From Planctomycetota bacterium (lineage in GTDB: Bacteria; Planctomycetota; Phycisphaerae; UBA1845): 17,375 nt of DNA. The notes under the pieces were generated by a model. That model was not told where the DNA came from. It was given only the letters and a program-made list of their open reading frames with translations, and searched no databases. This document shows positions 2 through 15,516 of this stretch, one piece after another (position 1 is the stretch's first letter; each line of letters begins with the position of its first letter). Location of the stretch: contig JADFRH010000014.1 of the NCBI GenBank assembly GCA_022561415.1, positions 1 through 17,375 on the forward strand, written 5' to 3'. A program made the position numbers and the translations under genes.

Positions 2-1322
2 CGCAAGAAGGAATTGCTTGGCTTCCCGCCGAGTATTACGACCTCCGCCACCACTTACATGCACGATCCGTCGTTCATGGGCTCGACCTTTTTCACGGCG
101 ACCGGTATCCCCGTCGGTAGGCTGCTCAGCGCCGGGCATGGCGCCACCACCGTGCCAACCGGTACGCCGGACATGCTCCCCCCGCTAAGCTGCCCGGTCT
201 CGTTCACGGTCAGCAGCGCTTCTGTTGGATTGGCGAACGGCCTGCCGAACCAGGTTAACGTAGACGCGACGGCCGCGGATCCGCGCCTTGACGTTACCGT
301 GTACGTGTCGCGCAGCGGCGGCGGACCGGGTGGGGCGCGTCCCGGGTCGCCGGATGGATCAAACACCCTGAGCGGCTCGTTGACCGGCGTAGGGGTCGGA
401 CCCTTTCCCGACTTCGTGATGGCCGACGCCATTACGAGTTTCTCCTATGGCCAGGACGGAACGATCCCGCTGATCGTGGTGTACGGCAAAGGTCCAGGGA
501 ATATTTACTTCTCACTGGACAAAGCCTCGCCGCCTTCGGTCGGCGTGTGTTTCGGCGCGGCGTCGGTCGGTGCGAACGTGTTCGCGTCCGTCACGCCTCC
601 GTTCGGGAGTTACGTCGACGTCATACAGGCGCCCGCTCTTCCGGGAACATACGTGTTGGTCGTGGATAGCAATGAACTGGGACTGGCCCCAGCGTTTGGC
701 GGAGCCGTTGACGACGAAGTGACCGGACTGGAACTCAAGGACGAGGTCCAAAAAACGGCCGGCTTGTTATGGTTCGGCACGCTTTCCGGACCGGCCAATG
801 GTGCCCTGGGTGGCGACACGGCCACGATTTATGTGAATGGCGCCGGCTTGTTTGAGCCGGGAAACTTCGGCATATACGCCGTGCCGGCCGACATGGGGTT
901 GGTGGCGGCGGACACGATTGACGCCCTTGTCCTTTCAGATACCGAAGCGGGCCACACACCGTTTGTTGCACCAACGCCGGGATGGCGTACTCCAACCGAA
1001 TGCTGCGGATGAGGCGCTGTTCTCGCTGGGTCGCGGATCACCCACGCTGGTAGCGCTCGGCGCATCGCCAGCCGACATCTTCTACACGGATTTCGACGGT
1101 ACGTTCTCACTGTTCATCCCAGCCGCCGCGATGGGGCTGGACCCTGCCCTGGATAACATTGACGCTGCCGACGTCAAGCCGCACCCAAAGGAGAAGAAGG
1201 AGGTACCGAAAGACGACATTCCCACCGTGTCCCAATGGGGGCTGATGGCCATGGCTCTGCTCATGCTCGTTGCGGGTACCATCGCGGTCGGACGGGCTCG
1301 CCGCCGGATTACGCCGGCGTAG
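2..1322 (+). pseudogene. Secreted surface-type protein with IPTL-CTERM-like tail, 5'-truncated by window, frameshifted
   Basis: The reading frame is already open at the left window edge (first codons read R-K-K-E-L), so the N-terminus is missing. The first frame runs to a stop at 1010-1012. The natural continuation, starting D-G-V-L-Q-P-N at 981, is one frame over and ends at 1322. Dropping one G from the GGG run at 979-981 joins them into about 439 visible residues with sensible protein on both sides (D-T-I-D-A-L-V-L-S before, D-E-A-L-F-S-L-G-R-G-S-P after). The composition is Gly/Ala/Val/Thr-rich with a beta-sheet character and no catalytic motif that I recognise. The C-terminus carries a sorting signal, so the protein is probably exported and anchored or processed at the cell surface. 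It may be a true pseudogene, or an intact gene with a one-base sequencing or assembly error. I cannot name a function. Confidence 0.7.
1218..1319 (+). other. IPTL-CTERM-like C-terminal sorting signal
   Basis: The last 34 residues of the frameshifted protein read I-P-T-V-S-Q-W-G, then a hydrophobic stretch (L-M-A-M-A-L-L-M-L-V-A-G-T-I-A-V), then a basic tail (G-R-A-R-R-R). A charged linker (K-P-H-P-K-E-K-K-E-V-P-K-D-D) precedes it. This tripartite layout is that of the IPTLxxWG-CTERM family of exosortase-type sorting signals. In other bacteria such signals are recognised by an exosortase, which is not in this window. Confidence 0.75.
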
Positions 1323-2606: not shown

Positions 2607-3371
2607 TCATAGCACGATTTCACGAAGACCATCGAAGATCAGTATCTTCAGCCCGGCCAGCGTCAGCGCGGCGCGAAACGCAATGCGAAAATGCCGCTCA
2701 GGAACGCCGCGGAGAATCCGCTTGCCGATCAGCGTGCCGGGGATCACCATCACGACCATCACCAGCGCCACGGTACCCAGACGGGTCACGTCCAAATCGC
2801 GAAGCAGCAGAAACGCCGGGATCTTCATCGCGTGCGTGGTGAGCTGGCAAACGGCCTTGGTCGCTATGAGCCGTTCCTTGACGAAACCTCGGCGCGTGAA
2901 GACGGGTGCAATTAACGGCCCGACCGCCCCGACGGTCAGAGCGGCCGTGCCCGCCAGGAATCCGGTCAGCGTGAAGCCGCGCAGATTTGTCGACGTCTCC
3001 AGCTTCGGCAGCCGCGACGGCACATGAGTCGCCAGCAGGATGTACGCGCCGATCAGCGTCTTCAGGTAGGGCTCGCCCTCTTCAATCTGCCCCAGCCACC
3101 ACAGGAGAAAAACACCGACCGCCCCGCCGGGGACGACACCAATCACGAACCGCCCCAGCACGGGGCGATCAACGTGCGGCAGAAACGCGAGGACGCGCGT
3201 TCCGTTGCTGGCGATCTGAACGGCCGCGTGGGTCGGAATCGCGTCGGCGTGCGACATGAAACAAAGCATCACGGCCAGCAGCATCACGCCGCCGGCCATG
3301 CCGAGAATGGCTGAGACGATGGAAGTGATCAGAGCAGCGACCGCTAGGATAATCGGGATGGAGGAAGACAT
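2607..3371 (-). CDS. TauE/SafE-family membrane permease
   Basis: This 254-residue, highly hydrophobic protein has seven or so potential membrane segments (for example about 5-39, 71-94, 103-117, 133-158, 198-216 and 230-246). Family-type features are G-M-A-G-G-V in the first segment (24-29), P-T-H-A-A-V-Q-I-A-S-N at about 46-56, and G-F-L-A-G-T...G-A-V-G-P-L at 137-153 in the second half, consistent with the two-fold repeat of TauE/SafE (DUF81) proteins. Members are proposed exporters of sulfite, sulfonates or small organic anions; the substrate here is unknown. ATG at 3371 starts the protein. A spacer of 64 bases with short repeats separates it from the phosphopantetheinyl transferase upstream, so read-through from the lipid operon is possible but not shown. 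Confidence 0.87.
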   Translation of the reverse strand: MSSSIPIILAVAALITSIVSAILGMAGGVMLLAVMLCFMSHADAIPTHAAVQIASNGTRVLAFLPHVDRPVLGRFVIGVVPGGAVGVFLLWWLGQIEEGEPYLKTLIGAYILLATHVPSRLPKLETSTNLRGFTLTGFLAGTAALTVGAVGPLIAPVFTRRGFVKERLIATKAVCQLTTHAMKIPAFLLLRDLDVTRLGTVALVMVVMVIPGTLIGKRILRGVPERHFRIAFRAALTLAGLKILIFDGLREIVL

Positions 3372-3435: not shown

Positions 3436-4008
3436 TCAGTTCTTTGTCGGCAACACGTGCCACTCGATTTTGTTTGAGCCACTCGTGACCGCGATCACGT
3501 GCTCTTGGTGGAAGTAATGCGCGGTTTGCCACTTAGCGTCCTTGTAGCGAAACGTCATGCTTGACCGCGCTTCGATCGATTGCAGGCGACAGCGAAGCAG
3601 ATCGGCAATGCCGACGCCGCCGGCTTTGAGGATCGCCTCCTTGGCCGTCCAAAGCCGAAAGAACGACGACCAGGACCGGTCGCCCATGATGGCCCATTCA
3701 TCCCCGCCCGCAAGTGAATCGTGCAGCTTTCGCTTACGCGGCTCGATGCGTTCGATGTCGATGCCGACCGGCGTGTCGGCGACCACGGCCGCCGCGTACT
3801 CTTGCTTGTGCGTCACGGACCAATGGAAACCTTCGTTGGGCTGCGGTACCTCGCGGTCGTTTTTTCGCCAGCCCTCGAGCGGCGCGCAAGCTAGCTTGGC
3901 CGCGTGCCGCAAGGCGAGTCGAGCGTATTCACGCTGCACCTCGACCTGGCGGGGAGAACGCGGCGTCGATTCGAGGGGAATCGGAATGATGACCGGGTGC
4001 AGGGTCAC
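3436..4008 (-). CDS. Sfp-type 4'-phosphopantetheinyl transferase
   Basis: This enzyme would move the 4'-phosphopantetheine arm from CoA onto the serine of an acyl carrier protein, most simply the one encoded at 8199-8456. The two family signatures are present: V-G-I-D-I-E (about residues 81-86 from the start used here), which supplies the magnesium-binding Asp, and F-F-R-L-W-T-A-K-E-A-I-L-K (about 116-128). An upstream S-V-T-H segment matches the CoA-binding histidine region. At about 190 residues it is a compact bacterial Sfp/AcpT-type protein. I place the start at GTG 4008, which overlaps the FabI-like stop as GTGA. A further in-frame GTG at 4026 would add six residues. It is the last gene of the tightly overlapped operon, which suggests a transferase dedicated to this pathway. 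Confidence 0.88.
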   Translation of the reverse strand: MTLHPVIIPIPLESTPRSPRQVEVQREYARLALRHAAKLACAPLEGWRKNDREVPQPNEGFHWSVTHKQEYAAAVVADTPVGIDIERIEPRKRKLHDSLAGGDEWAIMGDRSWSSFFRLWTAKEAILKAGGVGIADLLRCRLQSIEARSSMTFRYKDAKWQTAHYFHQEHVIAVTSGSNKIEWHVLPTKN

Positions 4009-4826
4009 GCACCGTCGGTCGGCCACACACCGCGGACGGTGTGCTCGACGATTTCCGGATCGAAGTAGTTGATGCTCATGCCGGCGTCCACGACGATGCC
4101 CTGCGCGTTGATGCCGCTGGCTCGCGGGCTCAGAAGAAACAGGGCCGTGTCCGCGACTTCCGGCGTGGTCAGGCCCTTTTTTCGCGGGATGGCACGCTCG
4201 GCGAACATGTAGTGTTCGATGTATCCGGGAATCCCCGCCGACGCGCTGGTCTTGAGCAGCCCGGCGCAGACCGCGTTAAACCGCACCTGCGAGTCGCGGC
4301 TGAATGACTTGGCGAGAAACGCGAGCGACGAATCGAGGGCCGCCTTGGCGGGCGCCATGTAGCCGTAGCTTTCGACGGCCATGCGCGTGGTGGAGATGGA
4401 GATCGTAACGACGCTGGCCTCGCGATCAAGCAACGCCTTGAATGCGTTGGCGATGGCGATCAGCGAGAAGCAACTCACCGAGACGCATTGCAGGAAGTCC
4501 TGCTTGCGGACCTCGTGGAACACGCCGGAGAAGGATTCGTAATTGGCGAATGCGATCGAGTGAACGATGCCGTGGATCTTGGGATGCTTCGCCCCGACAG
4601 CCTCGGCCAGTGCCTTGATTTGATTCTCGTCGTCGACATCGCAGACGTGTATCTCACCACCTTCGAGCAAGTCCTTAAGGCTGTCACGACGCGCCTCGGA
4701 TCGCACGCTGTAGACGACGTTGGCGTCTTCGCTCTTGAGGCGGCGGGCGACGTGATAGGCGACGCTGCGCTTGTTGGCCACGCCGAATACGACGAACGTC
4801 TTGCCGGCTAGATCGAGAAAGCTCAC
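4005..4826 (-). CDS. fabI: FabI-like enoyl-ACP reductase (SDR family) lacking the first active-site Tyr
   Basis: This 273-residue protein has the length and layout of FabI, which reduces the enoyl-ACP double bond with NAD(P)H at the end of each chain-elongation round. The nucleotide-binding segment G-V-A-N-K-R-S-V-A (15-23) is FabI-like rather than the TGxxxGxG of ordinary SDRs. V-H-S-I-A-F-A lies at 88-94 and A-G-L-L-K-T-S-A-S-A-G-I at 188-199, matching the FabI substrate-loop region. The catalytic pair Y154-x6-K161 is present. The additional FabI tyrosine ten residues earlier (Tyr146 in E. coli) is replaced here: residue 144 is Ile, and there is no Tyr between 98 and 153. The start is GTG at 4826, overlapping the FabZ stop as GTGA. 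It could be a true enoyl reductase or a related reductase adapted to an unusual acyl chain. Confidence 0.85.
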   Translation of the reverse strand: MSFLDLAGKTFVVFGVANKRSVAYHVARRLKSEDANVVYSVRSEARRDSLKDLLEGGEIHVCDVDDENQIKALAEAVGAKHPKIHGIVHSIAFANYESFSGVFHEVRKQDFLQCVSVSCFSLIAIANAFKALLDREASVVTISISTTRMAVESYGYMAPAKAALDSSLAFLAKSFSRDSQVRFNAVCAGLLKTSASAGIPGYIEHYMFAERAIPRKKGLTTPEVADTALFLLSPRASGINAQGIVVDAGMSINYFDPEIVEHTVRGVWPTDGA

Positions 4827-5266
4827 TGGTCGTTTTCCTTGTTATCAACCAGCATGCACGCAAACTCGACGCGCACGGCCTGCTTGCCATCAACGCTCGC
4901 GCGACCGGTCATGAAATAGGCGCCGCCGAGTTCGCTGTCCAACGTCACTTCGACCTTGATCGTCTCGCCCGGGCGGACGATTCGCTTGAACCTCGCGTCC
5001 TTGATGCGGGTGAGCACCGGCACGCCCTCCCAATCGCCTGGGTCGAGCTGATGCGCGATCAGCAGAGCGCCGGCCTGGAAGCAGCACTCGCAGAGCAGCA
5101 CGCCGGGCATGATCGGGTTACCCGGATAGTGGCCGCGAAAGCACTCCATGTCCGGATCGACTCGCTTCTGCGTCACGATGCGTTCGCCCGTTACCTCGAT
5201 GATGTCATCGACGAAGAGAAACGGTGGGCGATGCGGAATGGCGTCAATGCCGATCGCGGTGTTCAT
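4823..5266 (-). CDS. fabZ: FabZ-like 3-hydroxyacyl-ACP dehydratase
   Basis: This 147-residue single hot-dog protein has the normal FabZ length. It would remove water from 3-hydroxyacyl-ACP. The family pattern is clear: [10 protein letters not shown] at 11-20, then F-R-G-H46[10 protein letters not shown] with the catalytic histidine, and L-L-C-E60 with the catalytic acid. The residues around the acid, C-E-C-C, are unusually cysteine-rich. ATG at 5266 overlaps the stop of the upstream FAD enzyme as ATGA, and its own stop overlaps the FabI-like start as GTGA, so translation of the three genes is probably coupled. A second, housekeeping FabZ is likely elsewhere in the genome; this copy sits in a specialised cluster. 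Confidence 0.93.
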
Positions 5267-6714
5267 GCCGACACCCGCTCCCCGTCCGCCTCGGCCTTGG
5301 ACTCTTCCGCGTAGAAGAAGCTTTCAACCTCGTTGGCGACGATGACACCGTAGTTGATCGCGCCGAGCCAGCCGGACATGATGATGCCGACGGAACCCGC
5401 GTGAAACAGGCCGGGCAACTGCTTGGGCAAGTCCATGCTGACCTTGAGCCCCTCAAACTTGGTGCCGAAGGTCGCCCCGTGCATCTGCTGCGTATAATGC
5501 TGGAACGTTCGCGGGGTCGAGGCCTCGACATGGTCGATCTTCGATCTAATGTCGGGAAGGTATTTCTCGAGCGCGGTGAGCGTCGTCTCGATCAAATGCT
5601 CTTTGGCTTGTGCGTACTCTTCCGGCGTAAGGTCGGCCCAGTCGCCCCAGTTCGCGTTGGTGGACGAAACGATGGCGTAGCGGTCCGAGCCGGGCCGGGT
5701 GTCGGGATAGTACATCGAGAACGTGCGGCTGGTGATGTCTTTGGCGCACAGCGCCGTCGAGTCGAACTCCTCTTTCACCGACGTGAAGAGCAGATCACCG
5801 ATGTAATCGACCGTCTCACCCTTTCGGATTCCCATGTAGACCTGACAACTGCTGTTGTTCAGCCGAACGGCCCTGGCCTCTTCGGCGAACGCTTTGGAAA
5901 CGTGCTCGTAGCCCACGAGCTTCTCGATGGTCGTCTTGAGGTTGGCGTTAGAGAGAACGACGTCGGCATCGATACGGCGACCGTTGGCCATAACGCCGCG
6001 TGCCCGACCGCCCTCGACGACGATCCGCTCCACCTGCGCCTGCTTGCGCAGATCCACCCCGTTGCGCTCGAGCTCCCGCTTCATCAGATGAATGAGCTTG
6101 TCCGTGCCGCCTTGGTAGATGTAGACGCCCTTGCTCATGAAGTTGGAAAAGACGATGCCGAAGGTGATGGCCGGGTCGTCCAAGGTCGAGCCGTTGGCAT
6201 AGGCAATCGGCTCCATGAGAAGCCGCACGACGTCGGATCGCCCGGGAAAGAACTGTTCGAACAACTCCCGCGTGGTCATCCGGTCGTCGTCGTAGAAGTT
6301 CATGTCACGCGCGGTGTCGAAGAACCGTTCGATGGTGTCGGCCTCGATGCCGAACTCTTCGATGAGAAGGCGGGTGAAGTCGACGCGATCGAACGTGGTC
6401 TGGAACGAGAACTGGGGATTGTCGAATCGGATGCCCTTGAGCTGGACGATCGAATCGGCGATCTCCTTGGTCCAGTACTTACGACAGCTCTTGATCATCC
6501 CGATCGGAAAACCGTGCAGAGAGATGTCAAAGATGTGCCCGCCCTTGCGTCGAAACCAGGTGGCCATGCCACCGTAGTTGTAGTGCTGCTCGAGCAACAG
6601 CACCGACCGCCCGCTTTTGGCGAGCGAATTGGCCGCCGTCAGCCCGGCAAGCCCGGCGCCGATGACGATCACGTCGTAACGATCCTTCACACCTTCCAGA
6701 CGGTCCCGTGCCAT
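5263..6714 (-). CDS. CrtI/RetSat-like FAD-dependent oxidoreductase (copy A)
   Basis: From ATG 6714 this is a 483-residue flavoprotein of the phytoene desaturase / retinol saturase superfamily. The N-terminal dinucleotide fold is [10 protein letters not shown] (15-24), ending in the acidic strand L-L-L-E-Q and followed by Y-G-G. The late conserved T-P-R-T...H-Y-T and G-A-T-F-G segments and a C-terminal FAD-contact region (F-H-A-G-S-V-G...G-W-L-G-A) complete the family plan. Members desaturate, isomerise or saturate conjugated chains. In this operon a carrier-bound or released polyunsaturated acyl chain is a more likely substrate than a carotenoid, since no carotenoid synthase genes are nearby; that is inference. 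An upstream ATG at 6816 would overlap copy B by about 90 bases and adds Arg/His/Gly-rich sequence, so I reject it. The FabZ start overlaps its stop. Confidence 0.88.
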
Positions 6715-6725
6715 AAGCCCCAGCC

Positions 6726-8123
6726 CTACGTGTCCATCAAAACGTGGTTGTTGGCCATCATGATGCCGCTGAGCATCGCCCCGATGATACCGACGTAGCC
6801 CTGATCCGTCCCGCACAGGAACAGGTTTTTCAGGTGCGTTCGACCGTCACGGTGTTTTTGAGGCGAACCATACACGGCCCCGTTGATGTGACCGGTGAAT
6901 CGCTCGATCGTACGCGGTGTGAACATGTCGGTGGCGACCACGTGCTCGCCCAGCCCGGGGGCGTACGTCTCAGCCTGTGCAAGAAATGACACCTTACAGT
7001 CTCGCTTGGCCGCGGCGTAGGCATCTTCGTCCAGCCCCGTCCACAGGTCGTAGTTCGCCATCCAGGTGACGCGAAAGAGGCTCTCGGTCATTCCCTCGTG
7101 GCCGTCGTAGTTGCTCGGGCAGCAGACGACCCCACTCCGCAGATCCACCAGGCCGTCGGGTTTGGCGTAGGTGAACTTTTCGGCGTCGTTGAAAAAGACG
7201 ATCGTCGCCGCGTGACCCAGCTTCGCGGGCGGTCGATCCAGCACCGCGATGGACTCGACAAAGGAGAGCCGCCCGGGTCCGCTCGAATCGCGATCGACCG
7301 CGTCCTGGCCGCAGAGCCGCATGGTCTCGTGATACCCGGCCGACGAAAGCACGACGTCGGCCGACAAGGTCTCGCCCGATTCAAGTCGAACGCCGGTCAC
7401 GCGATCGCGGTCGACCTCGATCCGGTCGACGCCGCATCGCATTTTCAGTTTCCCGCCGCAGGCGCGAAAGTGCCTGACGAGCGTCTTGATGATCGTCCGA
7501 ACGCCGTCGGGCGGCCGGGCGAAGCCCTCCAGAAAGATGGCCTTGAACATGATGACGAACTGGAGGAAATCCATGTCATGCTCTTCGGCGCTGCCGTAGT
7601 ACATGATGGGGCACAGCAGCATCTCGATCAAAAGCGGATCGTCGAGAAAGCCGCCGAGTGCCGCCCGCGTGGATTCGTACGGTGCGTCGAGCCGTCGATC
7701 GTCAAAGGCGCGGACGGCCTCGATGAGTCGGTAAAAGTTGTCGATCTGCCGGGGGAACTGCTCGGCAACCTCTTGGATCAGACGCTCGACATCGTTGGTG
7801 AATCGCAGGCGATGGCTTGGGAAGCGCACCTCGGAAAACCCCTGTGGGCGCAGGTCGAATTCGTCTCGATCGATGCGGAGCTGACGAAGCAGCTTGGGGA
7901 GCGGCGTGTTGCGCACGCCCGGCGGAACGAAATTGGAAACCGCGTGGAGACCGACGTCGAACTTGCGTCCGCCGAGGGTGTAGTAGGAGTTCAGTCCCCC
8001 GTAAGCGTAGTGCCGCTCGACGATGCAAACGCGCTTGTCGAAATAGGCCAGGCGAATGCCGGCGGCCAGCCCCGACATACCGGCCCCGATGATTACAACG
8101 TCGTAGTGCATGGCAATCCGCAT
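6726..8123 (-). CDS. CrtI/RetSat-like FAD-dependent oxidoreductase (copy B)
   Basis: This 465-residue protein belongs to the same superfamily as copy A. It has [10 protein letters not shown] (9-18), the acidic strand I-V-E-R-H-Y, Y-G-G, then R-K-F-D-V-G-L-H, as in retinol-saturase-like members. The late motif T-P-R-T-I-E-R-F-T...G-A-V-Y-G parallels copy A, and the end (L-C-G-T-D-Q-G...G-I-I-G-A-M-L-S-G) is the C-terminal FAD-contact region. The two copies agree at motifs but differ widely elsewhere, so they are old paralogues that probably do different steps. ATG 8123 is used; ATG 8111 (M-H-Y-D-V) is equally possible. Copy A starts 11 bases after its stop. The gap of 75 bases to the upstream carrier protein shows no obvious signal. 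Confidence 0.88.
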
Positions 8124-8198
8124 GGGAGGATTCGCTCACCCTCGACGGGAGCGCCGAATGCGGAAGGGCATAGACCGTAGCGGGCGCCGAAGGGCGGC

Positions 8199-8456
8199 TT
8201 ACACAACAACGGTCGCGAACTTGGGCGCAAGATAGGAGGCGCAGCTGTCGAGCGAAGCAAGGTGCGCGTAATCCTCCTTGGGCACTTCGATTTTGTACCG
8301 CTTTCGCAGCTCCATGACGATGTCGAGGAAATCCATGGAATCCATGTCAAGTTGGTCACGCAAACGAACGTCATGTTTGAGAGTCGACAAATCGGCGTCG
8401 GGCGCCACCGTCGCAATGATGTCCAAAACGAGTCGCTTGACTTCTTGGCTGCTCAT
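8199..8456 (-). CDS. Acyl carrier protein
   Basis: This 85-residue acidic helical protein matches the length of a type II acyl carrier protein. The phosphopantetheine site is D-M-D-S40-M-D-F-L-D, a variant of the usual D-S-L-x-x sequence with Met after the Ser. It holds the growing chain as a thioester on the swinging arm. The divergent attachment motif and the place between a ketosynthase and polyene-type FAD enzymes suggest a pathway-specific carrier rather than the general AcpP. The Sfp-type transferase at the end of the operon is the obvious activating partner. ATG at 8456 starts the gene, about 50 bases after the ketosynthase stop. Confidence 0.93.
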   Translation of the reverse strand: MSSQEVKRLVLDIIATVAPDADLSTLKHDVRLRDQLDMDSMDFLDIVMELRKRYKIEVPKEDYAHLASLDSCASYLAPKFATVVV

Positions 8457-8506
8457 GGTTCTTGGGAACTCTGTATTCTATTCGACTTTACCGCACAACG
8501 CACGCA

Positions 8507-9745
8507 CTAGCCGCGATACTTCGCGACCACAACCGCAGAGTTGATGCCGAGCATCCCAAACGAGTTGTTCAGGATGTAATCGACTTCGCCTATCTCTCGC
8601 GGTTCATTCACGACCAGGTTATGCACGGCACAATCCGGATCGACCTCCGTAATATTGATGGTCGGGTGAACGACCCCATCGTCAAACGCCGCCAGGTTGC
8701 CGGCCAACTCCAGCACGCCGGCCGCCCCCATCGCGTGCCCGATGAAACTCTTCGTATTGTTGACGAAAACATCGCCGCTGTCACCGAAGACCAATCGCAG
8801 GGCTTTGGCCTCCTGCGGATCGCCCAGTTCGGTCGCCGTCGCGTGCGTGCTTACAATATCGACATCTTGCGGCGAAATCTTCGCTTTGGCGATGGCCGAC
8901 CTCATGCACGTCGCGAGCCGCTCCACATCCGGCAGAACCGCATCGGTCGCGTCGGAGTTCATGGCGTAGCCGACAATCTCGCCGACGATCGCCGCACCGC
9001 GTTTCTTAGCATCATCGAGCCGTTCCAGCACGAAAATGCACCCACCCTCGGACACTACGATGCCGTTTCGATCCCTGCAAAACGGGCGCGACGCCTTCGT
9101 TGGATCGTCGTGCTCGGCCAGCGAGTGCTCGCTGGCAAAGCTCGCAAAGATGCCAAACGAGTGGATCGACTCCGACACCCCGCCCGCCAGCGCGAGATCG
9201 ACCTCGCCGAGGCGAAGCATCTGAACACCCTGAATCAGCCCCGCGTTGCCCGCAGCACACGCTGCCCCGATCGTGTAATGGGGCCCCGTGAGCCCCAAAT
9301 TCATCGTCACCTCGCCGGCCGGGTTGTTCGCCACCGTCCGGGGGTTGTGATGATGCGACCAGTATCTGACATCGTAGTCGTATTGACGAATCAGGTCAAT
9401 CTCGTTTTCCGTCTCGACCGTGCCGTGCTCGGTGATGCCCAGGTAGGTTCCCACCCGCGAAAGGTCGATAGAAGCCGGATCAATCCCGGCACGGATCAGG
9501 GCCTCATGGGCACAGAAAATCGAAATTGAACCGGCCCGCGTCCCGCGGCGGCGTTCCTTGCGGGTCTCATGTGCGAACTCGTCGAAATGGCAGACCCCGG
9601 CCGCAACCGAGCCCATGAACCGAGTCTCGATCTTGGTGATGCCGGACACCCCACCGAGCAGACTTTTCCGGAACGCTTCCGGTGAATCTCCGTTGGGGGA
9701 CGTGAGCCCCACTCCCGTGATGACGACCCTGCTATCTACCGACAT
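8507..9745 (-). CDS. fabF: FabF-like beta-ketoacyl-ACP synthase
   Basis: This 412-residue protein has the length of FabF/FabB. It would condense malonyl-ACP with an acyl chain. The Cys-His-His triad is intact: C163 in G-A-A-C-A-A-G, H301 in T-H-A-T-A-T-E-L-G-D, and H337 in T-K332-S-F-I-G-H-A-M-G-A-A-G, so it is an active condensing enzyme and not a chain-length-factor-type decoy. Two regions depart from FabF: a W-S-H-H-H-N-P stretch (129-135), and the C-terminal gate N-S-F-G-M-L-G-I-N (394-402), where E. coli FabF has F-G-F-G-G-T-N. Such changes alter the acyl pocket entrance and suggest an unusual substrate. ATG at 9745 starts the gene; a 218-base spacer to oleD holds a possible promoter. 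Confidence 0.9.
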   Translation of the reverse strand: MSVDSRVVITGVGLTSPNGDSPEAFRKSLLGGVSGITKIETRFMGSVAAGVCHFDEFAHETRKERRRGTRAGSISIFCAHEALIRAGIDPASIDLSRVGTYLGITEHGTVETENEIDLIRQYDYDVRYWSHHHNPRTVANNPAGEVTMNLGLTGPHYTIGAACAAGNAGLIQGVQMLRLGEVDLALAGGVSESIHSFGIFASFASEHSLAEHDDPTKASRPFCRDRNGIVVSEGGCIFVLERLDDAKKRGAAIVGEIVGYAMNSDATDAVLPDVERLATCMRSAIAKAKISPQDVDIVSTHATATELGDPQEAKALRLVFGDSGDVFVNNTKSFIGHAMGAAGVLELAGNLAAFDDGVVHPTINITEVDPDCAVHNLVVNEPREIGEVDYILNNSFGMLGINSAVVVAKYRG

Positions 9746-9817
9746 TCACTTTGTCTCGACCGGTACCCACTGGCCGGACCCTCGATTCCGCGGTGCCGGC
9801 AGACGTTGAAAACCCGG

Positions 9818-9846
9818 ATAATAGCTGGAAACCGCCGGCGTGGAAA
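9818..9846 (-). promoter_or_regulatory. Possible sigma70-like promoter ahead of the ketosynthase gene
   Basis: On the minus strand TTTCCA (9841-9846) is followed after 17 bases by TATTAT (9818-9823), giving 4 of 6 and 5 of 6 matches to the -35 and -10 consensus. It lies in the 218-base oleD-ketosynthase spacer, about 70 bases before the ATG. A second transcription start for the FAS-type genes is plausible but unproven. Confidence 0.28.
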
Positions 9847-9963
9847 CGGGCTCCGCCCCTGAAGTTCGCCCGACGGGTGATTGCGTGCGGAGATGCGCAC
9901 GGGCGACGGCAATCGAAACATCGGCGCGAGCCACCCAGCCCCGATCCCCCAGATGTGCCGTGC

Positions 9964-10962
9964 TTATCCAGGCCCTTTCTCGAGTATCGCGGCCGCCAGC
10001 CGTCGCACACCCTCCTCGGTTGAGATGCGAGGTATGTACCCCAAATCTCTCCTAGCGGCCGAAATGTCAAAATAGTGAGACTTTGCGAGCTGTGAAGCGA
10101 CAAATCGCGTCATAATGGGCTCTTTCTGGATTCTCATGCAGCGATAGACGAACTCGAGCGTGGCGCCGATTCGGTGGGCCTTCTTGTATGAAATCGCCTT
10201 GGACACCTGTGGAACGCCGATGGCGGCGAGAACCCCGTTGATCCAGGGCCAAAACAAAACGGGCTCGCCCTGGCTGATGAAATAGGCCCTTCCGGCACAC
10301 GGCGAGCCGGGAAGGAGGGCGTCGGCGGCGAGCAAGTGGGCCTCAGCCGCGTTGTCAATGTAAGTGATGTCCACCAGGTTTTTCCCGTCGCCGACCTGGA
10401 GAAAGCGCCCCGCGCGGGCCCGTGCGAGCACACGCGGGATCAGGTGCGAATCACCCGGCCCCCAAACCAGGTGCGGGCGAATGGCCACGGTGCTGAGGTC
10501 CGGACCGTTTGCCGCGAGTACGGCGCGCTCCGCCTCCGCCTTCGTTTCGGGATAGACGGCCAGGTATCGGGCGGGATAGGGCCGGCTCTCATCCGCACCG
10601 CAGACATCGTCCGTTCCAAAGACAACGCTCGGCGAACTTGTAAATACTAGCCTTCCGACGCCGTTTCGCCTGCACGCTTCGATCACATTTGAGGTGCCGC
10701 CTACGTTGATCTCGTGGAACGTTTTGCGCTTGCCCCAGACGCCGGTCAGACCACCCGCGTGAAAGACAACGTCGACGCCGGTACACGCCCGTGCCACCGC
10801 ACCAGCGTCGCGGAGATCGGCCTGAACGGTTGCGATTCCGGCCGCGTCATGGTGGGCGTAGCGGTTGCGGCCGAGGACGAGCACGTCGTCGCCGCGCTCG
10901 GCGAGCATCTGCGCGATGCGTGTACCGACGAAGCCGCCGCCGCCGGTGACCAGCGCCCTCAT
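9964..10962 (-). CDS. oleD: OleD-like NAD(P)-dependent 2-alkyl-3-ketoacid reductase
   Basis: This 332-residue extended SDR is of the 3-beta-HSD/epimerase type. It has the cofactor loop T6-G-G-G-G-F-V-G13, a central V-F-H-A-G-G-L-T-G-V-W-G, then T-S-S-P-S-V-V-F-G, and the catalytic Y137-P-E-T-K141. The G-V-W-G and T-S-S-P-S-V segments are close to what I know of OleD, which reduces the 2-alkyl-3-keto acid made by OleA to the 3-hydroxy acid in olefin biosynthesis. ATG at 10962 overlaps the oleC stop as ATGA, so oleC and oleD are translationally coupled and probably act in sequence. An upstream in-frame start at 10983 is less likely because it lengthens the overlap. A sterol-type 3-beta-HSD role is a weaker alternative. 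Confidence 0.85.
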   Translation of the reverse strand: MRALVTGGGGFVGTRIAQMLAERGDDVLVLGRNRYAHHDAAGIATVQADLRDAGAVARACTGVDVVFHAGGLTGVWGKRKTFHEINVGGTSNVIEACRRNGVGRLVFTSSPSVVFGTDDVCGADESRPYPARYLAVYPETKAEAERAVLAANGPDLSTVAIRPHLVWGPGDSHLIPRVLARARAGRFLQVGDGKNLVDITYIDNAAEAHLLAADALLPGSPCAGRAYFISQGEPVLFWPWINGVLAAIGVPQVSKAISYKKAHRIGATLEFVYRCMRIQKEPIMTRFVASQLAKSHYFDISAARRDLGYIPRISTEEGVRRLAAAILEKGPG

Positions 10963-12650
10963 CGGAGGCGCTCCGCGGCCCACCCGGCCAGCGCTTCGCG
11001 ATTGATCTTTGCGTTGTGCCGAATGTCCACCGGCAAACTCTTGTGAAACAGAACGTCGCGGATGGTCTCGGTCAGGGGGTTGGTCCGGCCGAGTTCCAAC
11101 AGCTCCTCACGGAACCGTAGGGTCCGCATGCCCTTGGGGAATCGCCTCGGAAGCGGCTCGATAACGATCGCCGCTCTTCGGATCGTCGACGAACCGACGC
11201 CGACCAACGCGGAGCGATTCACGTCCGGGTGCTCGTTAAAAATCGCTTCGCAACAAACTGAAAACCGTGTTCCGCCGTTCGTCTCGACGCGATGGGCCTT
11301 GCGCCCGCAGAACCAGATTCGCCCATCGCCGTCGCGATAGCCCACGTCGCCGATTCTGTGCCGGATTCGGTCGCCGTCGGATATCTTGGCCAGTCGCGTC
11401 GCTTCCGGCAGGCCGAAGTACTCTCTCGTGACGACCGGACCGGACACGACGATTTCGCCGATCTCGCCATCGGGAATCGTGAGGTCGTCGCGCCACGTCG
11501 GGATCGCGTCGTCGGTGATTCGAATGATTCGCAGATCGACGCCGCCCAGCGGCTTGCCGACGCAAATCCCCCCACCGGTGCGAGTCTTGGTGGCACACTC
11601 GCCGAGGCGCTCGCGCCCGCCGATCGACGCCACGGGCAACGACTCGGTTGCGCCGTAAGGAGTGTGAACGTCCGCCTCCTCGCCGATTACGCGATGCAGT
11701 TTCTCGATCAGCTCCGTCGAGACCGGAGCACCGGCGATCAAAATCCGGCGCAACGAGGGGAGCTTGACCCTTCGCTCGACGCAGAAGTCGGCCACGCGTC
11801 GCCACAGCGCGGGTGAGCCGAACGTGGTCGTCACGCCGTGGCTGCGTATCGCGTTGACGATCTTGCTCGGATCCACGGACCCGGGTCGTGAAGGATCCAT
11901 ATCAGGGATCACGGCGGTCATGCCCATAGCCGTGGAAAACAGGGCGAACAGGGGAAACGTCGGCAGGTCGACCTCGCCCGGCTTTATGCCGTAGGTCGCT
12001 TGAATGCTGCGCACCTGTGCGTCGAACATGCCATGCTCGTAAACGACGCCCTTGGCCGGGCCGGTCGCTCCGGAGGTGAACAGAACGGCCGCCGTCTCGT
12101 CGCGACGCGTCTTGATGAAGTCGAAGTCGTCCACTGCGGTTCGAGAGATGGATTGGAGCGTGGGTCCGCCCCAGCACCAGCGGCGGCCCACCGTGACGAC
12201 TCGTTTGACCGCTCGGAACGATCTCGGGCGCAGCACACGCATGAAGTGGGCCAGCGGGATGCCGACGAACCCCTGCAAATCCACCGATCGGAGGCACTCG
12301 AGCATGCGGCGGGCGCCCATGCCGGGGTCGATCATGACCGGCACGGCCCCGATCTTGAACAGTGCGAAGACCAGGGCGATGAAGTCGAAGCCGGGCCGGA
12401 CCATGAGAAGCGTACGCATACCGCGCTCGAAACCGGCACCGACCAGCCCGTTGGCGTAGCGATTGGTCAGTCGCTCGAGTTCGACAAAGCTGAGACGCGC
12501 ATCGTGCCGGTCTTTCGATCCCGCGAGGACAACAGCCGCCTGCTCAGGATGGCTCGCGGCCATGCGCGGCAGGTACGACGCGATGTTGAATGCATCGCCC
12601 GTTCCCTCGCCGGCAGTCTTCGCGCTCGTATGGGTCGGTGCTATCGACAT
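10959..12650 (-). CDS. oleC: OleC-like AMP-dependent synthetase (beta-lactone synthetase)
   Basis: This enzyme of the ANL adenylating superfamily has about 563 residues from ATG 12650. It shows the phosphate-binding loop T-S-G-A-T-G-P-A-K-G (192-201), the aromatic signature T-P-Y-G-A-T-E-S-L-P-V-A (330-341) and the C-terminal catalytic lysine in N-A-K548-I-N-R-E-A-L. The stretch L-P-T-F-P-L-F-A-L-F...P-D-M-D-P-S-R-P is typical of OleC, which activates a 3-hydroxy-2-alkyl acid with ATP and closes it to a beta-lactone. OleD, its usual partner, follows with a 4-base overlap. The frame extends upstream to GTG 12719, but a promoter-like sequence at 12706-12734 would lie inside that extension, and the added residues precede the normal N-terminus, so I use 12650. 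A fatty-acyl-CoA or -AMP ligase is the alternative. Confidence 0.86.
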   Translation of the reverse strand: MSIAPTHTSAKTAGEGTGDAFNIASYLPRMAASHPEQAAVVLAGSKDRHDARLSFVELERLTNRYANGLVGAGFERGMRTLLMVRPGFDFIALVFALFKIGAVPVMIDPGMGARRMLECLRSVDLQGFVGIPLAHFMRVLRPRSFRAVKRVVTVGRRWCWGGPTLQSISRTAVDDFDFIKTRRDETAAVLFTSGATGPAKGVVYEHGMFDAQVRSIQATYGIKPGEVDLPTFPLFALFSTAMGMTAVIPDMDPSRPGSVDPSKIVNAIRSHGVTTTFGSPALWRRVADFCVERRVKLPSLRRILIAGAPVSTELIEKLHRVIGEEADVHTPYGATESLPVASIGGRERLGECATKTRTGGGICVGKPLGGVDLRIIRITDDAIPTWRDDLTIPDGEIGEIVVSGPVVTREYFGLPEATRLAKISDGDRIRHRIGDVGYRDGDGRIWFCGRKAHRVETNGGTRFSVCCEAIFNEHPDVNRSALVGVGSSTIRRAAIVIEPLPRRFPKGMRTLRFREELLELGRTNPLTETIRDVLFHKSLPVDIRHNAKINREALAGWAAERLR

Positions 12651-12705: not shown

Positions 12706-12734
12706 ACTATAGTTTCCACGCTGCGAGGTGTCGA
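12706..12734 (-). promoter_or_regulatory. Putative sigma70-like promoter of the oleC operon
   Basis: On the minus strand TCGACA (12729-12734) and TATAGT (12706-12711) are separated by exactly 17 bases, each matching five of six consensus positions. Transcription would begin near 12699, about 50 bases before the ATG at 12650. This is the best promoter-like sequence I found and sits at the head of the nine-gene cluster. Confidence 0.42.
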
Positions 12735-12755
12735 ACCGCACGCGCTCTACCCGGC

Positions 12756-12783
12756 TTGATATTGTACCGTGCGCACCTACGAT
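12756..12783 (+). promoter_or_regulatory. Putative promoter of the D,D-carboxypeptidase gene
   Basis: TTGATA (12756-12761) is followed after 16 bases by TACGAT (12778-12783), matching five and four of six consensus positions. It faces away from the oleC promoter candidate, about 20 bases beyond it, and would give a leader of 25-50 bases. Confidence 0.3.
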
Positions 12784-12841
12784 CAACGCCCTTGTGTCGT
12801 TGGGAAACCCAAACATGAATGGGCAGTGGATCAAGATTCGC

Positions 12842-14368
12842 ATGAACCGAGTGTCGCACGTCGCCTTGGCTGCGCTCGTCGCTCAGGCCGTGCTCGTTAC
12901 GTTCGCAGCCGGGCAGTCGGCGCTCGAGCGAGAGCTTCGGTCCGCGCTCTCTGCGCTACCCCATACGGAGACGCGAGTCAGTGCTTGCGTGGTCAACCTA
13001 CGTTTTGGAGAGACGATTCTCGCCTATCACGCCGACAAGTCGCTTACGCCGGCCAGCAGTATGAAGCTGTTTACGATGGTGACGGCCCTTGCCCTGTTGG
13101 GGCCGGGGTTTGAGTTCGAGACGGTTCTTGCGACCGACGGTACCAACCTGATCGCGATCGGTGACGGCGATCCGTCAACCGGCGACCGGAAGCTGCTGCG
13201 ATCGCGGGGCGAATCGATCACGGCGGAGCTCGAGCGATGGGCCGATGTGCTCGCCGTGCGCGGCGTGACGACCATCCCCGGCGATCTGGTCATCGACGAG
13301 TCAATCTTCGACGCTCAATTTGTTCATCCGTCGTGGGAGCAGAGCGACCTCGACAACTGGTACGCGGCGCCCATCGGAGCGCTTAACTTCAACGACAACT
13401 GCATCGACATCACGATTACGCCTGCGGCACGGGCCGGTGACCCCGTGCTGGTTTCCTTCGTGCCGAAAAACAGCCTGGTGGAGATCGTGAACAAGTGCGT
13501 ATCGGGTGGAAAAGGCGACCCCGTGCTGCGACACCCCCACGATTCGTTTTCCTACCGGATCAGTGGGCACTGCCGCAAGCGATGGGCTTTCGGGCCGGTC
13601 TCATTTCCTGATCCGGGCAAGCTGTTTGCCGATTCACTGCGTACGGTGCTGCAGGACAAAGGGATCACGATCGCCGGGGACGTGGTTCGTAGGCGGGTTC
13701 GCCGGGCGGACGGATCGCTCCCGAAAGACCTAACGATCGTCGCGAAGAGCGCGACATCACTGTCAGACGTACTCGCGAGAGTCGGCAGGAACAGCCAGAA
13801 CATGTTCGCCGAGTGCGTCTTCAAACGAACGGGGTATGCCTGGGCGTTGCAAACCGGGCAGGTGGACCCGCGTGGAAGCTGGCAAACGGGCAGGGAGGCC
13901 GTGCTACACGTTGCACATCGGGCTGGCCTGGAACCGGCCGGTCTGGCGGTGGCCGACGGTTCGGGGCTGAGCCGCGACAACGCCTGCACCGCCCGACAGT
14001 TGGTGACGCTTCTGGCGTGGGTCGACAGGCAGGCGTTCGGCCCGATTCTCCTGAACAACCTCGCGATCGGCGGTGAGGCGGGATCACTTCGCAAGCGGCT
14101 CGCGGAACTCGGCCCGCGCGTCCGTGCCAAGACCGGCACGATGCGAGGCATCACGGCCCTGGCGGGCTATGTGGGCGACGCCGGTGAGGCCGGTGGAACC
14201 GGCTTGCCGGCCGGCTTGCCTGGCCGATACGCGTTTGCGGTTCTATTCAACGGCTACCCCGGCACGAGCGCACCTTACAAAGCGATTCAGGACCGCATCT
14301 GCCGAGCGCTCGCGCGAGCCGTCGAGCCCGCCACGCCTCGGTCGAACCCGGCGCGAGCAAACCCCTAG
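12842..14368 (+). CDS. dacB: DacB/PBP4-type D-alanyl-D-alanine carboxypeptidase/endopeptidase
   Basis: From ATG 12842 this is a 508-residue protein that starts with a Sec-type signal peptide (hydrophobic core about 5-23, A-A-G end), so it acts outside the inner membrane on peptidoglycan. The three serine-peptidase motifs of the S13 family are present: S72-S-M-K75 with the nucleophile, S318-Q-N320, and K430-T-G. The long segment between the first and second motifs is the family's inserted domain. A Gly/Ala/Pro-rich loop (about residues 445-461) between the KTG strand and the next strand looks longer than usual. ATG 12815 would extend the N-terminus by nine residues and also leaves a workable signal peptide. 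It is divergent from oleC and ends about 40 bases from a convergent gene. A functional link to the lipid cluster is not evident. Confidence 0.92.
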   Translation: MNRVSHVALAALVAQAVLVTFAAGQSALERELRSALSALPHTETRVSACVVNLRFGETILAYHADKSLTPASSMKLFTMVTALALLGPGFEFETVLATDGTNLIAIGDGDPSTGDRKLLRSRGESITAELERWADVLAVRGVTTIPGDLVIDESIFDAQFVHPSWEQSDLDNWYAAPIGALNFNDNCIDITITPAARAGDPVLVSFVPKNSLVEIVNKCVSGGKGDPVLRHPHDSFSYRISGHCRKRWAFGPVSFPDPGKLFADSLRTVLQDKGITIAGDVVRRRVRRADGSLPKDLTIVAKSATSLSDVLARVGRNSQNMFAECVFKRTGYAWALQTGQVDPRGSWQTGREAVLHVAHRAGLEPAGLAVADGSGLSRDNACTARQLVTLLAWVDRQAFGPILLNNLAIGGEAGSLRKRLAELGPRVRAKTGTMRGITALAGYVGDAGEAGGTGLPAGLPGRYAFAVLFNGYPGTSAPYKAIQDRICRALARAVEPATPRSNPARANP

Positions 14369-14408: not shown

Positions 14409-15290
14409 TCACGGACCGATCAGGTCGTCGAAGAGGAAACCGTAGTCGTCCAGGTCCACGGTGAGGTCATCGTTGATGTCGGCCGCTTCGCAGCAGGTGG
14501 CAATGACACCTGGCGGTTCGCTGAGGCAATTCTGTAGCAATGCGAAGTCCTTCAAGTCCGTACCGGCGATCGGATCAATCGCTACCGGACACGGCACAAC
14601 CGCCGCGCTTTGCCCGGCGTTGTTGGTGAAGACGGCCGGTCCGGGGGTCAGCGCGTAGTCGTCGAAGTTGGTCGTGCTTTCATCAGTGGCACTGCCTTGA
14701 AACAGTAGACCGCGTGTGTCGGAAGTCGGAAGCGGGCCGTCAAACGGTGGACCGAAGTCTCCGTCGTCGTCGTTGATCATGCTCCCGATTGTCGGACCGG
14801 TGTAGGCAGAGCCGCCGTAGCTCAGCGACCAATAAATCGTCCCGTCGCCATTCTCATACGTCAGGCGACCGGCCGCCAGATAGGAGGCTGGGATCAGGTT
14901 GGTCATCGTGAAGTCGGAGGCGAGCGGGGAATCGAGATGGGCGTGGAAGTTCTCGCTCGCGATCAAGACTCGGTCGCCAAGCGCACCGTTCGGCGTAGCG
15001 CTATTGAAGTCAATGATCGTGATGGGGTTCTGCCCGGCCGCATCCCACGCCCGCAGTCGCGCGTATTGGAACTGGTTGTCGGTGGGAAATCGGATTCGCA
15101 GTTGAATGGCCTGCGACGAGGTGTCGCCGTCGACGCCGCCGATGACCTGCTCGATCGCCACGTCATGAAATGAGGCACACGCGGGAGCGGCCGGCGTGAT
15201 GATCGGGCAGACCGACATCCCCCCAATAGCGACGGCGGCAACAACGGCTCCCTTGGGGCGACGGACCCGATCGCATCGGTTCCGGGGCAT
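14409..15290 (-). CDS. Secreted protein with C-terminal dockerin-like segment
   Basis: From ATG 15290 this is a 293-residue protein. The N-terminus is basic (M-P-R-N-R-C-D-R-V-R-R-P-K), then hydrophobic to P-A-A-P-A before C-A-S-F, which suits signal peptidase I; the context is not a good lipobox. The body is a beta-rich, Asp/Gly-rich domain that I do not recognise by function. The C-terminus has D-L-K-D-F-A-L-L-Q-N-C-L followed by A-D-I-N-D-D-L-T-V-D-L-D-D-Y, a calcium-binding-loop pattern like one dockerin repeat with a degenerate partner, common at the ends of planctomycete secreted proteins. An in-frame start at 15452 exists but puts 54 residues before the signal peptide, so I reject it. 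The role is unknown, perhaps surface attachment. Confidence 0.78.
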   Translation of the reverse strand: MPRNRCDRVRRPKGAVVAAVAIGGMSVCPIITPAAPACASFHDVAIEQVIGGVDGDTSSQAIQLRIRFPTDNQFQYARLRAWDAAGQNPITIIDFNSATPNGALGDRVLIASENFHAHLDSPLASDFTMTNLIPASYLAAGRLTYENGDGTIYWSLSYGGSAYTGPTIGSMINDDDGDFGPPFDGPLPTSDTRGLLFQGSATDESTTNFDDYALTPGPAVFTNNAGQSAAVVPCPVAIDPIAGTDLKDFALLQNCLSEPPGVIATCCEAADINDDLTVDLDDYGFLFDDLIGP

Positions 15291-15420
15291 GATCACTCGA
15301 ATTGGCGCACTGGCTCCCCCCATGCTGCTTGATGATAGGCAGGCCCATCGCCGGCTTCCAGTTCCGCGTAAGGAGCCCGCGCAAAGAATGAACGCCCGGA
15401 AATACCCCGTAGACCGGTCG

Positions 15421-15436
15421 AACCAGCTTGCTGGTT
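15421..15436. repeat. Perfect 16-base dyad in the spacer between two secreted-protein genes
   Basis: AACCAGC and GCTGGTT flank a TT centre, so the sequence is a perfect dyad with seven-base arms. It lies 81 bases after the metalloprotease stop and about 130 bases before the dockerin-like start, both on the minus strand. It may be an operator or a small hairpin. No T-run follows on the minus strand. Confidence 0.35.
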
Positions 15437-15516
15437 GGCCAAGTTGGGGCACTTCGGACGTTCGTTGTTACGCAAAGTCGTTAGCGGCCAAGTCGCTCTG
15501 CCATTCGCGGACGCCG

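Follow-up and report, generated by a model that had tools for sequence, protein, structure and literature searches.

A type II fatty-acid synthase gene set with two CrtI-like flavoenzymes, conserved beside oleC and oleD, as a probable acyl supplier of the olefin pathway in Planctomycetota

Introduction

In bacteria, polyunsaturated hydrocarbons and polyunsaturated chains made without O2 have been traced chiefly to the large Pfa synthase. Here we examine a 17,375-nucleotide stretch from a planctomycete of the class Phycisphaerae (contig JADFRH010000014.1), hereafter the window, in which nine genes on the reverse strand (3436 to 12650) place a type II fatty-acid synthase (FAS) set with two CrtI-like flavoenzymes, CrtA and CrtB, behind oleC- and oleD-like genes. 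A sequence-only reading of the window had proposed that this private FAS set, the CrtI-like enzymes and the Ole enzymes form a functional union making an undescribed polyunsaturated, cyclised or beta-lactone-containing lipid.

The head-to-head OleABCD pathway has been reported from Proteobacteria, Planctomycetes, Verrucomicrobia, Chloroflexi and Actinobacteria (PMC7158056; here and below, published statements are those of the cited sections of each paper). OleA links the Pfa synthase to a 31:9 hydrocarbon, is argued to draw acyl groups from the acyl carrier proteins (ACPs) of the synthase and, combined with pfa, gives a polyunsaturated ketone of the 31:8 type (Allen and co-workers, PMC6463001), and Pfa-like clusters of Deltaproteobacteria and of one planctomycete have been suggested as the source of olefin precursors (Shulse and Allen, PMC3098273). 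Desulfotalea psychrophila contains C31:8 (4%) and C31:9 (1% of total lipid extract), has no polyketide-type polyunsaturated-fatty-acid genes and carries CrtI-like genes in FAS clusters (Rattray 2009, PMC2649909). The same paper states that hydrocarbons of the C31:8/C31:9 type are known from Planctomycetes and describes candidate loci of anammox bacteria that combine FAS genes with two CrtI-like genes. The words OleA, oleABCD, olefin and head-to-head are absent from its main text. In the open-access literature, searched by titles and abstract openings with most subscription literature outside this scope, no CrtI-type FAS joined to the Ole pathway was found.

We report that the coupling of the FAS-CrtI set to the Ole pathway is strong, and we propose that a type II, CrtI-containing acyl supplier probably replaces the Pfa synthase in these bacteria and feeds the Ole pathway, which would lead to a polyunsaturated olefin.

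Conserved gene order

Nine co-directional open reading frames (ORFs) run on the minus strand from 12719 (ATG at 12650) down to 3436. In the direction of transcription they read OleC-OleD-KS-ACP-CrtA-CrtB-FabZ-FabI-PPTase, where KS is a ketosynthase and PPTase a 4'-phosphopantetheinyl transferase. The ORF list, Pfam and NCBIfam support each identity, in agreement with the sequence-only reading. That reading had also named gene order across relatives as a check, and the order is conserved. A first scan with CrtA yielded 8 loci; among the loci fetched, tblastn recovered the full nine-gene order in seven (L002, L005, L006, L047, L049, L050 and L059), with an additional ORF between ACP and CrtA in L006 and between CrtB and FabZ in L059. 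L001, L003, L004, L007 and L048 match the order as far as their contigs extend, and L008, from Opitutae, has KS-ACP-CrtA only. Because the same order stands in 7 other loci, the nine-gene arrangement exceeds chance.

Co-occurrence with the Ole pathway

Genes were counted in three genome samples: 197 genomes of the phylum of G002 (Planctomycetota), 198 of its class and 131 of the order of G008 (Verrucomicrobiota), record titles giving G002 as Phycisphaerae and G008 as Opitutae. Queries for CrtA, the marker gene of the analysis, were the window protein at 1e-90 in the class, an L008 protein at 1e-80 in the order and alignment A5 at 1e-60 in the phylum. OleA was sought at 1e-60 with A1 (class) or A3 (order and phylum), OleB with A2 at 1e-40 and PfaD with TIGR02814. 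A completeness of 80 was requested, and the genome searches scored only part of the first-pass candidates in many genomes. CrtA carriers known beforehand were G002 and G005 in the class sample, G002 in the phylum sample and G008 in the order sample.

In the phylum sample, OleA was found in 74 genomes, CrtA in 42 and PfaD in 32. All 42 CrtA genomes carry OleA, within ~10 kb of CrtA in 19 of them, and the 74 OleA genomes divide into 42 with CrtA, 30 with PfaD, none with both and two with neither. The class sample yielded OleC in 35 genomes, OleA and OleB in 34 each, PfaD in 24 and CrtA in 11. Its 34 OleA genomes are 24 PfaD genomes plus 10 CrtA genomes, with zero overlap and zero remainder; OleA and OleB occupy identical genome sets, and OleC accompanies CrtA in 11/11 genomes, OleA and OleB in 10/11. 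In G008's order, CrtA was present in 98 genomes and OleA in 104 (95 with both, 3 with CrtA only, 9 with OleA only and 24 with neither), and PfaD in 1. PfaD therefore appears in 0/11, 0/42 and 1/98 CrtA genomes of the class, phylum and order, respectively. Because CrtA and PfaD alternate in this way, the FAS-CrtI set is the natural second donor for OleA; the polyunsaturated product of the sequence-only reading fits, since CrtA genomes occupy the place of PfaD genomes. Two canonical ole loci, L063 (G156) and L067 (G117), have a frame of ~2,000 codons that finishes immediately before oleA, with PfaD on the same contigs; in L067 this frame has ketosynthase-like motifs, as judged by eye.

The FAS-CrtI genes are linked to OleC-OleD in 7 of the 11 class genomes with CrtA (G002, G005, G038, G070, G147, G184 and G204), and the two units lie on different contigs in the other four (G052, G164, G175 and G178). 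Such separation speaks for two unrelated neighbours, one an FAS for membrane lipids, the other a general Ole pathway working on ordinary fatty acids. We regard that explanation as very improbable, given that co-occurrence is near perfect even in unlinked genomes, that linkage recurs in two phyla and that the OleA subfamily tracks the acyl source (see below). Conserved order, co-occurrence of OleA and OleB across contigs and fused superclusters support the functional union that the sequence-only reading had drawn from the window.

An OleA-OleB pair occupies a separate site in G002, G005, G070, G184 and G204, and apparently also in G147, where it lies at a contig end; in G038, OleB stands directly ahead of OleC. 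In related genomes, OleA and OleB complete the pathway from sites that a reading of the window could not show, and judging by the relatives in the class sample (10/11 CrtA genomes) the window's own genome probably carries OleA and OleB as well. These observations bear on a beta-lactone lipid, the case in which OleC and OleD act last and the lactone ring is kept. No OleB-like gene is present among the 16 window ORFs scanned, and oleACD clusters without oleB have been interpreted as beta-lactone makers (PMC7064751). Against this, the decarboxylase OleB occurs in 10 of the 11 class CrtA genomes, exactly those with OleA, and adjoins OleC in G038 and in 11 superclusters. A beta-lactone product is therefore unlikely in the relatives, and we give it a small chance overall.

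Separately, OleB matches in four PfaD genomes, G064 (L128), G129 (L135), G135 (L129) and G187 (L130), fall within long frames that equal the OleC frames in length (878-1186 aa), a possible OleB-OleC fusion. In G052 and G178, which have a long OleC frame, such a fusion was ruled out, the OleB match being on another contig.

Fused loci and OleA subfamilies

A further 40 regions were fetched, chosen mostly for the nearness of OleA to CrtA or as exceptions; because of this selection, the supercluster counts are not frequencies. In 11 regions (L300, L301, L307, L308, L309, L311, L313, L314, L325, L327 and L328), oleABCD and the core KS-ACP-CrtA-CrtB-FabZ-FabI share one locus. Six loci of G008's order (L334-L339) read KS-ACP-CrtA-CrtB-FabZ-FabI-OleA-OleB, and L340 (G332) retains this order with a ~4 kb gap between CrtA and CrtB.

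The fabZ genes of L308 (13774-14925) and L309 (12055-13041) carry, inside the FabA-like domain, an in-frame insert that matches an IS200-like transposase domain (Y1_Tnp), and tblastn breaks fabZ likewise in L307, L325, L327 and L328. The second FabZ that tblastn suggested in several superclusters turned out, in L308 and L309, to be one FabZ frame with the transposase-like insert.

An OleA tree was built from 91 of 99 loci, a motif cut having missed G010, G045, G152, G030, G181, G379, G467 and G336. It has 84 labelled rows (54 CrtA-type and 30 PfaD-type) and 7 unlabelled ones, including G008, G234 and G265, which have CrtA. The tree needs a single label change: one branch separates the two types, and both phyla are represented on the CrtA side. 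This split fits an OleA that is suited to its acyl donor.

Flavoenzymes and gene content

The best NCBIfam match of both CrtA and CrtB is TIGR02730, a carotenoid isomerase model, below its cut-off. AlphaFold models of the two (predicted local distance difference test, pLDDT, 87.0 for CrtA and 81.5 for CrtB) have the carotenoid desaturase fold, and 4rep is the best PDB match for both, with template modelling (TM) scores by query length of 0.76 (CrtA) and 0.72 (CrtB) and identity of ~18%. Relatives number at least 7986 proteins for CrtA (E up to 1e-20) and at least 8000 for CrtB (E up to 1e-60), counts that may take in other CrtI-like families.

CrtI chemistry normally yields conjugated, not skipped, double bonds. 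Together with the carotenoid desaturase fold of both models, this favours a conjugated, pigment-like polyene hydrocarbon, for which the CrtI-like enzymes would desaturate allylic positions and leave no skipped cis bonds. We consider such a product unlikely: the best-scoring model, albeit below cut-off, is that of an isomerase, and the alternation with PfaD points to a skipped polyene of the Pfa type, C31:9 being the known polyunsaturated hydrocarbon. The two CrtI-like proteins of Kuenenia, possible orthologues of the window pair, made no lycopene (Javidpour 2016, PMC4790861).

The cluster encodes separate KS, ACP, dehydratase (DH) and enoyl reductase (ER) with their catalytic residues, as expected of a type II FAS. 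The catalytic Cys, both His and the Lys of KS are invariant in 13 aligned rows, the DSMDF motif of ACP, with the phosphopantetheine Ser, in 15, and the His and Glu of FabZ and the Y-x6-K of FabI in 11 each. FabI has Ile where 1ulu has a second tyrosine, ten residues earlier, a residue that we take to have a role in that enzyme. Among the 16 window ORFs scanned, we recognised no ketoreductase (KR, FabG), no malonyl-CoA:ACP transacylase (MAT, FabD), no multidomain PfaA or PfaD reductase, and no radical S-adenosylmethionine (SAM) or methyltransferase gene.

The last of these absences leaves the cyclised product of the sequence-only reading without support. To our knowledge, ladderanes have been reported solely from anammox bacteria, and CrtA accompanies OleA in 42/42 phylum genomes. 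The anammox candidate loci do resemble the window in pairing FAS genes with two CrtI-like genes, which is what would recommend a ladderane-type or other cyclised lipid; three anammox KS paralogues, however, lack the catalytic Cys163 that the window KS retains (PMC2649909), and we see hardly any likelihood of such a product here.

Proposed mechanism and points against it

The KS, ACP, dehydratase, enoyl reductase and PPTase each have a counterpart among the Pfa functions; CrtA and CrtB remain for the double bonds. In the scheme that we propose, the PPTase would charge the ACP, the KS would elongate the chain, FabZ would dehydrate it and FabI would reduce it in some cycles. CrtA and CrtB would set the double bonds while the chain is carried on the ACP, through isomerisation or desaturation that needs no O2, and KR and MAT would presumably be supplied by the housekeeping FAS. 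Two of these acyl-ACPs would then be condensed head to head by OleA, encoded elsewhere; OleD would reduce the product, OleC would close the beta-lactone and OleB, also encoded elsewhere, would decarboxylate it, leaving a polyunsaturated olefin near C31:9. The scheme starts from observed gene identities, conserved order, OleA/OleB co-occurrence, PfaD alternation and fused oleABCD/FAS loci. Polyunsaturation of the chain is likely, and the olefin would probably be near C31:9. A known product type, the C31:8/C31:9 hydrocarbon, reached by a route not yet described is a better fit than an undescribed lipid, which is not needed. Of the product named by the sequence-only reading, the polyunsaturated part fits, the cyclised part has no support and the beta-lactone part is unlikely.

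Tentatively, and with rather less confidence than in the general scheme, we suggest that KS-ACP-CrtA-CrtB-FabZ-FabI may be an undescribed anaerobic type II polyunsaturated-fatty-acid synthase, a modular counterpart of Pfa. In it, the CrtISO-like pair would replace the dehydratase/isomerase domains, one enzyme performing the 2,2- and the other the 2,3-isomerisation of enoyl-ACP, and skipped all-cis acyl-ACPs would pass to the matched OleA subfamily, which in Planctomycetota and Verrucomicrobiota alike would turn them into olefins of the C31:9 type. The same machinery might then include, as one branch, the CrtI genes of anammox ladderane loci.

Several observations weigh against a CrtI-containing supplier of the Ole pathway. 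Besides the conjugating habit of CrtI chemistry, the CrtI genes of D. psychrophila may belong to other families than CrtA and CrtB. Fisher tests for CrtA/OleA co-occurrence gave 6e-23 (phylum), 6e-08 (class) and 8e-16 (order), values that are optimistic because the genomes are related, and the alternation is no series of independent switches, because the acyl source changes once on the OleA tree. OleA was found in 30/32 phylum PfaD genomes, the two others being G392 and G403. In G175, which has CrtA and OleC, the genome search found neither OleA nor OleB, and three genomes of G008's order (G251, G262 and G286) have CrtA and no OleA. At their CrtA loci, G052 and G178 showed only KS-ACP-CrtA and G175 only CrtA, the remaining FAS genes not having been sought elsewhere. 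Nine genomes of G008's order have OleA and no CrtA match. Three of these were examined: G326 shows only OleA in its 16 kb, and G222 and G255 have CrtB-FabZ-FabI-OleA-OleB, so at least part of the system is present in those two. G336 and G458 have OleA with neither CrtA nor PfaD; the OleA of G458 falls among the PfaD type on the tree and ketosynthase domains occur at the locus, so that PfaD may merely be missing from the assembly. Finally, G271 (L333, around C24:27657), the sole PfaD genome of the 131, has CrtA, OleA and PfaD, and both acyl suppliers can therefore share a genome. The G336 locus (L324) holds two OleA-like proteins, near 4078 and 7485, with ~40% identity to the queries; this genome possibly has a different OleA pathway.

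Layout of the cluster and neighbouring genes

The OleC-like AMP-binding enzyme of the beta-lactone synthetase family (10959..12650, minus strand, as are all nine genes) matches AMP-binding at 1.9e-50 and PRK09274 at 687 bits (cut-off 478). Its longest frame starts at 12719, and the ATG at 12650 is 23 codons inside. Two OleC equivalog models match over the full length below their cut-offs, with 586/900 bits for OlefBLtnSynXan and 522/850 bits for the other. The OleD-like short-chain dehydrogenase/reductase of the 2-alkyl-3-oxoalkanoate reductase family (9964..10983) matches 3Beta_HSD at 1.5e-55; it is likewise below cut-off on the OleD equivalog models, with 408/580 bits on its best model, NF042422, and 376/580 on another, and an Opitutae OleD scores similarly on NF042422 (409 bits). 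The FabF-type KS (8507..9745) and the FabI-type enoyl-ACP reductase (4005..4826) are identified by Pfam and NCBIfam, with catalytic residues kept. The ACP (8199..8456) matches PP-binding at 2.8e-07. CrtA (6726..8111) and CrtB (5263..6714; longest frame from 6816) are CrtI/CrtISO-like FAD (flavin adenine dinucleotide) enzymes, as their predicted models indicate. The FabZ-type 3-hydroxyacyl-ACP dehydratase (4823..5266) has a FabA-like domain (1.4e-22) and reaches 111 bits on PRK00006 (cut-off 113), and the Sfp-type PPTase (3436..4026) matches ACPS at 1.9e-13.

Four gene pairs overlap by 4 to 25 bases (OleC/OleD, CrtB/FabZ, FabZ/FabI and FabI/PPTase), and the largest intergenic gap, between OleD and KS, is 218 bases. 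Promoter and terminator scans contribute little: the sigma-70-like scan gave 7 sites in 9.7 kb against 2.2 expected, and its best match ahead of the OleC ATG (12706..12734, minus strand; TCGACA-17-TATAGT, 10/12) is weak evidence.

The cluster is flanked upstream by a divergent S13 D-Ala-D-Ala carboxypeptidase gene (12728-14368, plus strand), which stays beside it in L001, L005, L006, L047, L048 and L049, and downstream by a TauE-family gene (2607-3371, minus strand), which does so in L002, L004, L005, L047 and L049, and by a GNAT gene. Farther out, overlapping frames at 14-1012 and 837-1322 (plus strand) resemble one exported protein split by a frameshift, and the C-terminal stretch of the second presumably corresponds to an IPTL-CTERM-type sorting signal. 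The ORF at 14409-15452 (minus strand) has no Pfam match and ends in acidic C-terminal repeats that we take to be dockerin-like.

Comparison with known systems

The type II FAS with two CrtI-like flavoenzymes is a conserved and widespread module, probably acting in place of the Pfa synthase, and its coupling to the Ole pathway is well supported. The reading proposed here would explain polyunsaturated lipids in bacteria without the giant Pfa enzyme, a set of small enzymes taking its place, and would offer a small-enzyme route to polyunsaturated chains. The 2009 paper described C31:8 and C31:9 without Pfa and proposed a CrtI-type FAS, its cited sections naming no pathway from chain to hydrocarbon (PMC2649909); since CrtA and PfaD alternate almost perfectly among OleA genomes, that proposal gains a pathway, a partner in OleA, a minimal set of genes and groups of organisms in which it can be tested. 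The alternation also provides a system for comparison with ladderane loci, where the role of CrtI-like enzymes is unsolved.

Like the OleABCD pathway, the window has OleC- and OleD-like enzymes, with OleA and OleB elsewhere in related genomes. It differs in that oleC-oleD head a type II FAS-CrtI operon, that oleA-oleB lie apart in the nearest relatives and that OleA belongs to a separate subfamily. With the Pfa and OleABCD route to the C31:9 hydrocarbon hentriacontanonaene (PMC6463001, PMC3098273), it shares a dedicated acyl supplier of KS, ACP, DH, ER and PPTase and the same genomic niche. Unlike Pfa, its enzymes are discrete type II proteins and not a PfaA-D megasynthase, KR and MAT are absent from the cluster, and CrtI-like flavoenzymes with FabZ stand where Pfa has dehydratase/isomerase domains. 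The CrtI-containing FASII clusters of Kuenenia and Desulfotalea also combine FAS genes with CrtI-like flavoproteins, whereas, unlike the window, they include genes for radical SAM, methyltransferase and ligase proteins, and their FabI is encoded at another site (PMC2649909). CrtA and CrtB share the FAD fold of carotenoid CrtI/CrtISO and RetSat, with 4rep as nearest structure, and differ from them in their low sequence identity to it and in their substrate, presumed to be a carrier-bound acyl chain.

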